Virus record (IMG/VR): IMGVR_UViG_3300019487_000957 | Coordinates: 1 to 20,991 of that record | Strand: one strand, 5' to 3' | DNA from: a virus | DNA: 20,991 bases | Translations under genes and position numbers: made by a program | Part shown: one piece after another, positions 15,515-20,545 of the stretch | How the letters are laid out: each line of letters opens with the position of its first letter | Numbering within the stretch: position 1 is the stretch's first letter | The notes under the pieces: generated by a model | Database searches by the model: none | What the model was told of the DNA's origin: nothing | Seen by the model: the letters and a program-made list of their open reading frames with translations, nothing else

Positions 15515-16174
15515 ATGAACGTCGAAGAGTTTCGCCGTCTTCACTTGAAAGCTGCCATCGCCCGGTTCAAAACGCAGCAAGAATTCGCTGACGCGCTGGG
15601 ATACGAGAGGAGCTACGTCAATCAGATGCTTAAGCGTAAAAACATGGGGCGCAAAGTCGCGCGAAAGATCGAGCGCATCCTAGGGTATGAACCGGACAGC
15701 TTCGACCAAAATCCCCATCTGCGTCCGTTGCCGACGCTAGCCGAGCCGAAACCGAGCTATGAACCGATCATGCCCTTGGTCCCCATACTCGGCACAATCG
15801 GTTTGCCCGAAGGTACCAGTTACGCCATCCCATCCCCGGGAGAGCCATCCGAGGACTATCTGCCATCGCCGGCACACGATGGAGCTGCATATGCGTTGCG
15901 CGTGGTGGGCGACGAACTAGCCCCGCGCGCCTTTGATGGCACTTTCTTGGTTGCCTATCCCAGCGCATCCTGGGATTCCGGCGATCCGGTAATCGTTCGC
16001 CTGCACGGTGGGCGGAGCTTCGCTAAGCAAGTGGTCTATCGGCGGGAAGATGACATCGCGTTACAAGAATTCATACCGACTATGAAGGGCCATATCCACT
16101 GGTCGCGCGCCGACATTGCCTTCGTGCACCTCGTCATCGCCGTTTTTCACCGCAAATCTATCGACTGGCGTTAA
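15515..16174 (+). CDS. CI-like repressor with catalytically altered S24 domain
   Basis: 219 residues. Residues 5-60 are a HTH: LHLKAAIARFKTQQEFADAL, GYERSYVNQMLKRKNMGRKV, ARKIERILGYEP. Residues 85-219 have the LexA/CI S24 fold: LVPILGTIG, AAYALRVVGDELAPRAFDGT, GDPVIVRLHGGRSFAKQVVY. In S24 proteins the motif is G-D-S-M with Ser as nucleophile; here it is G132-D133-E134-L135. The partner lysine (K171) remains. So RecA-stimulated self-cleavage is unlikely, while the dimerising fold seems intact. It diverges from the Cro-like gene and should maintain lysogeny. Lower GC than the neighbouring genes. Confidence 0.85.
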   Translation: MNVEEFRRLHLKAAIARFKTQQEFADALGYERSYVNQMLKRKNMGRKVARKIERILGYEPDSFDQNPHLRPLPTLAEPKPSYEPIMPLVPILGTIGLPEGTSYAIPSPGEPSEDYLPSPAHDGAAYALRVVGDELAPRAFDGTFLVAYPSASWDSGDPVIVRLHGGRSFAKQVVYRREDDIALQEFIPTMKGHIHWSRADIAFVHLVIAVFHRKSIDWR

Positions 16175-16359: not shown

Positions 16360-16376
16360 GGCGGAGGAGCTCCGCC
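16360..16376 (+). promoter_or_regulatory. Hairpin that encloses the ribosome site of the DUF2513 gene
   Basis: GGCGGAG (16360-16366), loop GAG, CTCCGCC (16370-16376) form a perfect 7-bp stem ending one base before the ATG at 16378. The only Shine-Dalgarno (GGAGGAG) is inside it, so translation initiation may be held back unless the hairpin is opened. Confidence 0.6.
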
Positions 16377-16377
16377 G

Positions 16378-16866
16378 ATGAGACGCGACTGGGATCTAAT
16401 CCGCCAAATCTTGCTCAAGCTGGAGCAAAAGGACAACGCCGGAGGCGCGGTGGACCCGAGCGAGTTTCCCGGCTACGACGACGGCACGGTCATCCTGCAC
16501 ATGCGGCTGCTCGATCAGGCGGGGCTGATCGACGTCCACCCCAATACGCCGGTTTTTTGCCTGGCGCGCAATCTGACCTGGCCGGGGCATGAGCTGCTTG
16601 ATGCCATCCGCACCGATAGGGCATTGAGTCGCATCAGTGGCCTGGCCAAGGAGAAGGGGCTCGATCTGTCCTTCGAGGCGATCACAGCGATCGCGCGTCA
16701 GCTGCTATACACGCAGCTACGCCAGGAGGAGTTGCCTAATCATCCGACGGATTTGCCGGCGGGATACAAGTTCGAGCCGCTCTACCGGCTTTGCCCCCGA
16801 TGCGGATGGGACCTACGCCAACAGCCGGAAGAGGCCAAGGGCGACCAGCCCAGGTCCCAAGAGTAG
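16378..16866 (+). CDS. DUF2513 family protein with C-terminal CxxC
   Basis: 162 residues. MRRDWDLIRQILLKLEQKDN and the spaced VILHMRLLDQAGLIDVH ... LTWPGHELLDAIRTDRALSR give the DUF2513 signature (MxRDxDLxRxILLxIE, LTWxGHEFLDxIR). The domain is winged-helix-like and frequent in phages and mobile elements; its function is unknown. It has an unusual extension (residues 115-162) with FEPLYRLCPRCGWDLRQQPE, one CxxC pair. It is the first gene after the promoter at 16271-16299 and its ribosome site is folded in a hairpin. Confidence 0.82.
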   Translation: MRRDWDLIRQILLKLEQKDNAGGAVDPSEFPGYDDGTVILHMRLLDQAGLIDVHPNTPVFCLARNLTWPGHELLDAIRTDRALSRISGLAKEKGLDLSFEAITAIARQLLYTQLRQEELPNHPTDLPAGYKFEPLYRLCPRCGWDLRQQPEEAKGDQPRSQE

Positions 16867-17123: not shown

Positions 17124-17152
17124 CCCCCCGCGAGATCCTCAGCGGCCTGTGA
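17120..17152 (+). CDS. 10-residue micro-ORF MTPREILSGL
   Basis: ATG at 17120 overlaps the preceding stop (ATGA), and its own stop (17150-17152) overlaps the GTG of the next gene (GTGA). Thus a 10-codon reading frame is joined on both sides by 4-nt couplings. It may be a relay that carries ribosomes to the next gene or the stub of a truncated gene. No function assigned. Confidence 0.35.
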   Translation: MTPREILSGL

Positions 17153-17381
17153 CACAGCACCTCGGTGATTTCAAACCGCATCGCCCGCTGCCGGCCCTGC
17201 GCCGGGACTGGCAGGCGCTCATTCTGGCGGCCAAAGAGAACGCCGAGCGCTGGTTGCGCTACCAGCGCGCGCTGGAGGAGGACAGCGAGGAGACCGCGCC
17301 GCGCTCAAGGCGAGCTATGTCGCCGGCTTTCTGGCCGGGGCGCAGCAGGGCTTAGCCGCGAGGGTGTCGAAACATGCATAA
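17149..17381 (+). CDS. Hypothetical early protein interrupted by a frameshift
   Basis: From the GTG at 17149 the frame reads MTQHLGDFKPHRPLPALRRD, WQALILAAKENAERWLRYQR, ALEEDSEE, then drifts into TAPRSRRAM. The natural continuation, DRAALKASYVAGFLAGAQQG followed by LAARVSKHA, lies in the -1 frame from about 17292 to the TAA at 17379-17381. One extra G in GAGGAGACC would repair it and give a helical protein of 77 residues. The sequence before the break is helical and basic, the part after it may be a small hydrophobic helix (VAGFLAGA). Confidence 0.5.
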
Positions 17382-17391
17382 GACCGCACTC

Positions 17392-17508
17392 GCGCCACCG
17401 CAGAAGGGGCCCGAAGCAGCGCCGCGGACCATTGCCCGGGGGGACCTTGGCATGCGGTTCCCCCCTGTGCTTTTGGCCCCTTCTCCGGTGGCGCCTCCCC
17501 GCGGCGCT
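17392..17508 (+). ncRNA. Long rod-like inverted repeat with nested hairpin and possible pseudoknot
   Basis: Arm 17392-17411 pairs with 17475-17494 in 19 of 20 positions. Inside, 17413-17418 pairs with 17468-17473 (one G.U) and GGGGGGACC (17438-17446) with GGTTCCCCCC (17456-17465, one bulged T). In addition AGCGCCGCGG (17418-17427) is perfectly complementary to CCGCGGCGCT (17499-17508), which lies outside the main stem, so an H-type pseudoknot or a switch between two folds is possible. No good gene occupies the interval 17382-17612. Strand assigned by operon direction. It may be a regulatory RNA, a processing site or the remnant of a mobile element. Confidence 0.5.
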
Positions 17509-17510
17509 AC

Positions 17511-17590
17511 AAAGGGATTAGAACCACTGCCGTCAATTGGACTAGCACTTGTTCGGCAGCAGTCTGCCCACTGGGTTTTAGTCCCTTTTT
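17511..17590 (+). ncRNA. Three-way-junction RNA candidate ending in a T-tract
   Basis: 17511-17525 pairs with 17574-17588 over 15 bp (two G.U wobbles on the plus strand). It encloses two hairpins: CTGCCG/CGGCAG (17527-17532, 17554-17559) and CAGT/ACTG (17560-17563, 17570-17573), the second abutting the first and the outer stem with no unpaired base. A run of five T (17586-17590) ends the outer helix. The plus-strand wobbles favour RNA over a DNA palindrome. It could be a structured sRNA with its own terminator, a riboregulator of the HTH gene starting at 17613, or an elaborate terminator. Confidence 0.5.
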
Positions 17591-17612
17591 AGGGCCGCGG
17601 AGGATCTAGCCA

Positions 17613-19293: not shown

Positions 19294-19505
19294 GTGATAC
19301 CTTAATCGATGCCACAGCGCTGGCACGCTGGCTCGGCTACGAGCGCGACGGGGATATCGCGCGCTGGCTGCGCACCCGCAACATACCATTCTGGTACGGC
19401 AAGGACCGGCGGCCTTGCACGACGCAGGCGGCCATTGATAGCATGTTACTGGGGGAGGGAAAGGGAGAAACAGAAGAAATCCAGTTTAAGGGATATCGTT
19501 CATGA
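19290..19505 (+). CDS. DUF4224-like / excisionase-like protein upstream of integrase
   Basis: 71 residues from a GTG (19290, GTGA with the gene before). SDTLIDATALARWLGYERDG, DIARWLRTRNIPFWYGKDRR and PCTTQAAIDSMLLG follow the pattern of DUF4224 proteins: 'L-x-x-x-x-L-A-x-x-x-G-Y-x-R-x-x-x-I-x-W-L-x-x-N-x-I-P-F', which commonly stand directly before an integrase. A role in excision or DNA architecture at attP is inferred. It overlaps the integrase start as ATGA. Confidence 0.68.
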   Translation: MSDTLIDATALARWLGYERDGDIARWLRTRNIPFWYGKDRRPCTTQAAIDSMLLGEGKGETEEIQFKGYRS

Positions 19506-20545
19506 AAAAGAAACGCACCCACAGCGGCTTACCGCCGTATACGTACCAAACAGCCTCTGCCTTTGTGTATAAGCCCTATGTCCTTGGGTCGGGGCGCAAA
19601 GGCCGACGGGAGACCATTCCGTTAAGGAACCCGGCCGGAAAAATTTTACGTCCTGGGGTTCCCCTGTCGCAGGTATGGACGGCTTGGGAACGCCTACAGG
19701 GCATTCAACAGCTAACGATTGGCTGGTTGCTGGATGCCTTTTCGCAGTCGATCGATTTCGCCGATCTCAGCCCCATCACGCGCCAGGAATTCACCAGACA
19801 GATTAAATACATACGACATTATCCTTTAGGGGATCATCGGGCATTCGGGGATTTGCGACTGAAATCCATTACGCCCGGGATGTTGCGCAAGTACTTGGAT
19901 CAGCGTAAGGAAGAGGATGCGCCGATCTCGGGTAATCGAGAGCTGACTTTGATCTCCAAGGCGTGGACATGGGCCTATGGGCGGGATGAGATCCGAGTTG
20001 AGAACCCGTGCCCACACGTGAAGCGCAACAAGGAAGTGCCGCGCAAGCGCTATGTGACCGACGAGGAATACGCGGTCGCCTTCGATCTGGCCGGAGATTA
20101 CCGCTATCTCCAGCCAGCAATGGAGCTTGCGTTTCTCTGCCGACTGCGCCAATGCGAGGTGCGAGAACTCAGAAAATCTGATATCACCGAAAAGGGCCTA
20201 GACTGCAGACGGGTCAAGGGATCGCGTGATGCACTAACGCTGTGGTCTGATCGGCTGCGCTCTGCCATCGACATGGCGTGTACCATCGCGCGTGAGGTCG
20301 ATTCCGTTTACTTGTTACACAAAGGGGATGGCCAACCGCTGACGAAGACAGGCTTTGACACGGCCTGGCAGAGGCTAAAAGCCCGCATGCGCAAGGCGCG
20401 CATCGAGCCGTTTAACTTCCACGATCTCAAGGCTAAAGGGATCTCGGACTTCGCCGGCGACAAGCAGGCTGCGGGCGGGCACCGAACGGCCGCGATGGTG
20501 GCGATCTACGACCGCAAGAAACCCGAGGTCGACCCCACTCGCTAA
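19502..20545 (+). CDS. int: Tyrosine recombinase (phage integrase)
   Basis: 347 residues. The N-terminal part (to about 60) is basic and resembles arm-type DNA binding domains; residues 70-165 are the SAM-like core-binding domain (TIGWLLDAFSQSIDFADLSP, GNRELTLISKAWTWAYGRDE); the catalytic domain starts near 180. Catalytic residues: R216 in CRLRQCEVREL, K239 in RRVKGSRDA, H307 in FNFHDLKAKGISDF, H327 in GGHRTAAM and the nucleophile Y336 in AIYDRKKPE. The second arginine of the RHRY set, normally HDLR, is Lys310. Its 3' end overlaps the convergent gene by 4 nt. No attP core could be recognised without a host junction. Lower GC than the late genes. Confidence 0.93.
   Translation: MKKKRTHSGLPPYTYQTASAFVYKPYVLGSGRKGRRETIPLRNPAGKILRPGVPLSQVWTAWERLQGIQQLTIGWLLDAFSQSIDFADLSPITRQEFTRQIKYIRHYPLGDHRAFGDLRLKSITPGMLRKYLDQRKEEDAPISGNRELTLISKAWTWAYGRDEIRVENPCPHVKRNKEVPRKRYVTDEEYAVAFDLAGDYRYLQPAMELAFLCRLRQCEVRELRKSDITEKGLDCRRVKGSRDALTLWSDRLRSAIDMACTIAREVDSVYLLHKGDGQPLTKTGFDTAWQRLKARMRKARIEPFNFHDLKAKGISDFAGDKQAAGGHRTAAMVAIYDRKKPEVDPTR

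Follow-up and report, generated by a model that had tools for sequence, protein, structure and literature searches.

What does an intercistronic gap that folds into two large hairpins do directly upstream of a phage excisionase-like gene? The DNA analyzed here (the window) is a virus record of 20,991 bases, in which the structural genes lie on the minus strand and the lysogeny genes form a rightward set. The excisionase-like gene (xis) belongs to this set, together with the genes for the repressor and the integrase (Table 1), and is preceded by a gap of 231 nt. A preliminary description had proposed that the gap encodes a folded RNA, either a regulator of the excisionase-like gene or a stable phage sRNA. 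A megablast search of the whole window against a phage collection yielded no relative. A viral contig of 6.6 kb (L009) shows approximately 80–83% DNA identity to the terminase region, and stops short of the lysogeny genes and the element.

Table 1. Rightward genes and parts of the element upstream of xis, with positions in the window.
Feature	Position	Strand	Basis or remark
S24-type repressor	15515–16174	rightward	
DUF2513 protein	16378–16866	rightward	
Noncoding intercistronic region, from the TAA of the upstream gene (17379–17381) to the ATG of the xis-like gene	17382–17612	+	sequence
Hairpin 1, arms of 27 positions (17392–17418 / 17468–17494), loop of 49 nt	17392–17494	+	predicted fold, −67.1 kcal/mol
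AGCGCCGCGGA, in hairpin 1 at the loop end; nearly the same as AGGGCCGCGGA (17591–17601, Shine-Dalgarno arm)	17418–17428	+	
Hairpin 2, outer stem 17496–17509 / 17590–17604, two small hairpins inside	17496–17604	+	predicted fold, −61.3 kcal/mol
Hairpin 2 core, apparent paralogue of hairpin 1	17501–17598	+	pair-register comparison
Hairpin 2 upper helix, 15 bp, two G.U pairs	17511–17525 / 17574–17588	+	inverted-repeat check
GTTTTAGTCCCTTTTTA, same 17 nt as at the start of the type II-C CRISPR repeat of C. jejuni	17575–17591	+	3′ arm of hairpin 2; judged chance
GGAGG, Shine-Dalgarno of the xis-like gene, 9 nt 5′ of ATG 17613, within hairpin 2 (3′ arm)	17599–17603	+	predicted fold
Excisionase-like gene (xis-like), 91 aa	17613–17888	+	phrog_1300 excisionase, E = 4.6e-7
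Tyrosine integrase	19502–20545	rightward	

An open reading frame of 72 codons (17374–17592) crosses both hairpins; at its start it overlaps with the stop of the frame that precedes it. It scores −0.33 bits per codon, within the range of out-of-frame controls (−0.79 to −0.23), compared with +0.11 to +0.52 for 17 genes of the window. Neither Pfam nor a tblastn search of phages yielded a match to the frame. Because its codon score is at the out-of-frame level and these searches returned nothing, the gap is best treated as noncoding, and a leader peptide that would open the hairpins was rejected on the same grounds. The earlier statement that the interval holds no gene is upheld, as no overlapping reading frame has a coding-like score. 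At the gathering score, no Rfam family (riboswitch, tracrRNA or phage RNA) was found in the window, and a relaxed threshold gave chance-level matches only.

Folding of the stretch 17370–17612 gave −131.9 kcal/mol, compared with −94.4 ± 5.2 kcal/mol for dinucleotide shuffles (z = −7.2), and none of the 200 shuffles folded as well; the structures that had been described are real. The minus strand of the same stretch also folds well (z = −5.6). When the whole window was scanned for long inverted repeats (arms of 27 nt matching at 23 or more positions, loops of 20–80 nt), two sites only passed, and these are the neighboring hairpins 1 and 2.

Within hairpin 1, we recovered the 20-bp inverted repeat with 19 matches (17392–17411 / 17475–17494) of the preliminary description, as well as the 10-bp complementarity that crosses out of it (17418–17427 with 17499–17508), which is perfect (P = 0.0065 versus shuffled loops). 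The self-complementary CCGCGG, present three times in the element, is part of this crossing match. Hairpin 2 had been described as a three-way junction with a 15-bp outer helix that contains two G.U pairs and ends in T5. The helix and its wobbles are present, but the helix is not the outermost one: pairs run from 17496 to 17604 and include the Shine-Dalgarno of xis, and the T5 (17586–17590) overlaps the 15-bp helix and lies within the 3′ arm of hairpin 2, not after it. Two points absent from that description are this outward extension over the Shine-Dalgarno and the apparent paralogy of the hairpins.

In the predicted fold the Shine-Dalgarno of xis is paired, as expected for a sequestering structure. 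In the outer stem, U17496–C17498 pair with GGA 17602–17604 and CCGCGG 17499–17504 with CCGCGG 17595–17600, leaving A17601 bulged. The predicted unpaired probability is 0.00–0.02 for the four G residues of the Shine-Dalgarno and 0.98 for the bulged A17601. Opening the ribosome-binding stretch of xis is calculated to cost 15.8 kcal/mol, the second highest value among 28 candidate starts in this GC-rich window, with p79 (16.2 kcal/mol) and the ParB-like gene (15.1 kcal/mol) within 0.7 kcal/mol of it. When the base of hairpin 2 was removed in silico, the Shine-Dalgarno was still paired, now with downstream sequence. As hairpin 1 lacks the outer extension, the cover of the Shine-Dalgarno belongs only to the xis-side hairpin.

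The two hairpins look like diverged tandem copies. Aligned in register, hairpin 1 and the hairpin 2 core are identical at 61 of 96 bases (64%), and 15 of the 26 comparable stem pairs are identical at both bases. In a permutation of the hairpin 2 base pairs that allowed the best single gap in each trial, 15 identical pairs were reached once in 20,000 trials (p = 5e-5), and never with flipping. The stems differ in length by one base pair, and both carry a mismatch at pair 10 and a G.U at pair 22. Seven pairs are changed on both sides, six of which are still paired (six compensatory double changes), and one further pair differs as C-G to U-G. If the hairpins are paralogues, pairing was kept while the sequence changed. 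Template switching within palindromes during replication can yield paired changes without selection on an RNA. All three arm differences of the transition type give G.U on the plus strand and A.C mismatches on the other, a weak observation that is expected by chance in 1 of 8 cases.

A covariance model built from hairpin 1 only scored hairpin 2 above every other place in the window except hairpin 1 itself when filters were off (20.2 bits, E = 0.0073); with default filters, hairpin 2 was not reported at E ≤ 1. Plain local alignment of the hairpins gave p = 0.002 (0.19 for the loops alone), and other GC-rich parts of the window match hairpin 1 equally well. Since this alignment is not decisive alone, the paralogy rests on the in-register pair test. 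In the sequences searched, no independent homologue was found outside the window. Covariation is limited to the pair of apparent paralogues, which serves as a partial substitute for the comparison of homologues proposed at the outset.

A direct search for xis in viral contigs and GTDB genomes found nothing, and an alignment-based scan identified relatives of the Xis protein on 33 viral contigs. In 25 of the 28 scored relatives there is no spacer, as the upstream frame runs into the start of xis, in most cases with an overlap of 4 nt. Fold z-scores for the 240 nt upstream of xis range from −2.5 to +1.5 in the 28 relatives with an assignable start, versus −7.7 in this phage. Among the excisionase relatives (L049–L081), the overlap with the upstream gene is nearly always 4 nt (ATGA), an arrangement of conserved translational coupling, so that xis would there be translated together with the upstream gene.

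The element is absent from all 33 xis relatives and from 83 related loci. It was not found in phages, plasmids or E. coli, in viral contigs searched by pattern, or in sampled genomes of 369 Gammaproteobacteria, 398 Pseudomonadota and 20 members of one order, the last searched by covariance model. A weak covariance match in genome G265 (E = 0.064) falls where a housekeeping reading frame begins and was taken as chance. As far as could be seen among the sequences searched, the element replaces the coupled gene junction in this phage alone, which is compatible with a specific regulator as well as with an inserted palindrome.

We consider the chances about even that the element is a cis-acting intercistronic translation block on xis in the repressor-to-integrase transcript and came about when a hairpin was duplicated in tandem. 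The basis of this reading was obtained computationally and consists of the fold, the noncoding status, the paralogy, the compensatory changes and the pairing of the Shine-Dalgarno. A single hairpin of approximately 100 nt was probably duplicated in tandem between the upstream gene and xis, and the xis-side copy has an additional outer stem in which UCC-CCGCGG (17496–17504) pairs with CCGCGG-A-GGA (17595–17604). If repressor, DUF2513, xis and int are carried on one rightward mRNA that spans the element, the buried Shine-Dalgarno would keep translation of Xis from repressor-side transcripts low, and low Xis would keep excision off in the lysogen. RNase III, a helicase or a transcript that begins inside hairpin 2 would be candidates for lifting the block. 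The structured spacer may also uncouple xis from the upstream gene, unlike the overlapping junction of the relatives. Regarding the suggested regulator of the excisionase-like gene, the sequence is indeed noncoding, strongly folded and directly 5′ of xis, and plausibly acts on it. The element was matched in no other sequence searched, and its function as a translation block is putative. If confirmed, it would place an excisionase under a built-in translation block in a phage whose repressor and xis genes share a strand, with xis 3′ of the repressor, and it would be an RNA control element with an origin in tandem duplication and divergence by compensatory changes; at present it is a single unreplicated case.

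The main rival to a translation block is a MITE- or REP-like palindromic repeat, mobile or derived from the host, that was inserted upstream of xis and tandemly duplicated, with any effect on xis being incidental; we regard this as unlikely. It would account for two similar palindromic units lying side by side, for the missing spacer in 25 of 28 scored relatives and for the absence of the element from every xis relative, and, as in MITE and REP repeats, the adjoining units are intergenic and approximately 100 nt long. Such repeats are dispersed; here no further copy was found in the window, the 83 related loci or the sampled Gammaproteobacteria and Pseudomonadota, and no target-site duplication was seen. 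That the structure insulates xis-int against repressor transcription, as a terminator or a site of RNase III processing, appears improbable. Stems longer than 20 bp suit RNase III, and both stems exceed this length; near the base of the upper helix of hairpin 2 there is GGG/CCC, with AAA preceding the helix and T5 following it. An intrinsic terminator would combine a short-loop, GC-rich hairpin with a free U-run directly behind it, but the would-be loop measures 48 nt and the T5 is paired inside the larger stem. A terminator scan did not list the site, and hairpin 1 is without a T-run. A free-standing phage sRNA, the other function initially put forward, found no support, as a consensus scan showed no promoter-like site in the stretch and no homologue was found.

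The perfect 10-bp complementarity and the resemblance of the loop word to the Shine-Dalgarno arm would also fit a pseudoknot or two-state switch that pairs the loop of hairpin 1 with 17499–17508 and frees the Shine-Dalgarno. We hold this to be very unlikely, and the originally suggested pseudoknot conflicts with the geometry of pseudoknot linkers. With hairpin 1 complete, the 4-nt linker (17494 to 17499) must bridge approximately 26 bp (approximately 70 angstrom), and therefore the crossing helix and complete hairpin 1 cannot coexist; an H-type pseudoknot between strands at opposite ends of the hairpin is excluded in that state. A nested alternative that dispenses with hairpin 1 is less stable by 22.6 kcal/mol and leaves the Shine-Dalgarno paired elsewhere, and hairpin 1 is completed before 17499–17508 is synthesized. 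We see correspondingly little likelihood in a new riboregulator architecture with one tandem copy bearing the Shine-Dalgarno block and the other exposing in its loop a decoy for that arm (AGCGCCGCGGA / AGGGCCGCGGA); on partial opening of hairpin 1 the decoy would invade the block and turn the excisionase on. As RNA anti-CRISPRs (Racr) are known from prophages (PMC10651486), a CRISPR link was tested as well. That the element is an RNA anti-CRISPR or a tracrRNA-like decoy of type II-C is, in our judgment, extremely improbable. The 17-nt word GTTTTAGTCCCTTTTTA, which pairs with an anti-repeat-like arm, equals the start of the C. jejuni II-C repeat (sequence from Table 1 of PMC4607530), and RacrIF1 is known from a Thiocystis prophage (PMC10651486). 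Compared were 20 repeats from gammaproteobacterial cas9 loci, 8 repeats from papers and 14 tracrRNA candidates. The C. jejuni match (score 17) exceeds all shuffles, but was spotted after the fact, and no lineage other than a distant, AT-rich one has it; with C. jejuni left out, the best score against the 27 other type II repeats was 12, versus a shuffle maximum of 14. A degenerate motif occurred four times, each singly, in 369 Gammaproteobacteria and its reversed control five times, indicating that no arrays in these genomes carry the repeat. The body of hairpin 2 does not resemble the 14 gammaproteobacterial tracrRNA candidates (28 versus a shuffle mean of 26.9), and the motif is missing from the paralogous hairpin 1. 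With Racr the element would share its place in a prophage gap, its structured noncoding nature and a short match to a CRISPR repeat; unlike Racr (PMC10651486), it has no promoter-like site, no repeat-length match, with no full-length repeat similarity to arrays in the sampled class, and no fitting array there. The 17-nt identity to the Campylobacter repeat is best read as chance.

The kind of element that a translation block on xis would represent is familiar, and this instance is undescribed in the sources searched. Intercistronic hairpins that mask a downstream Shine-Dalgarno occur, for example, in RNA phages and ribosomal protein operons. As in those hairpins, the Shine-Dalgarno is placed in a stable stem, on its 3′ side, directly before the start codon; unlike them, the element has a very long spacer with two apparently paralogous hairpins, and no upstream reading frame with a coding score that could open the stem. 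Similar to RNA thermometers and riboswitches, a 5′ structure is predicted to pair with the Shine-Dalgarno of a prophage gene, an example being the fourU thermometer of blyA in prophage SPbeta (PMC10586365); no fourU pairs with the Shine-Dalgarno here. The stem of −61 kcal/mol is far too stable to serve as a thermometer at ordinary temperature, and no Rfam aptamer was identified.

Two further observations concern neighboring genes. Directly 5′ of the DUF2513 start (ATG 16378), a perfect 7-bp hairpin (GGCGGAG-GAG-CTCCGCC, 16360–16376) includes the Shine-Dalgarno of that gene, and is thus a second buried ribosome-binding site in the rightward gene set. The gene upstream of the element (17149–17381) shifts frame: the reading frame 17149–17355 reads well, and the tail to TAA 17379–17381 is coding-like (codon score +0.30) in another frame, which reflects either a sequencing error or a broken gene.
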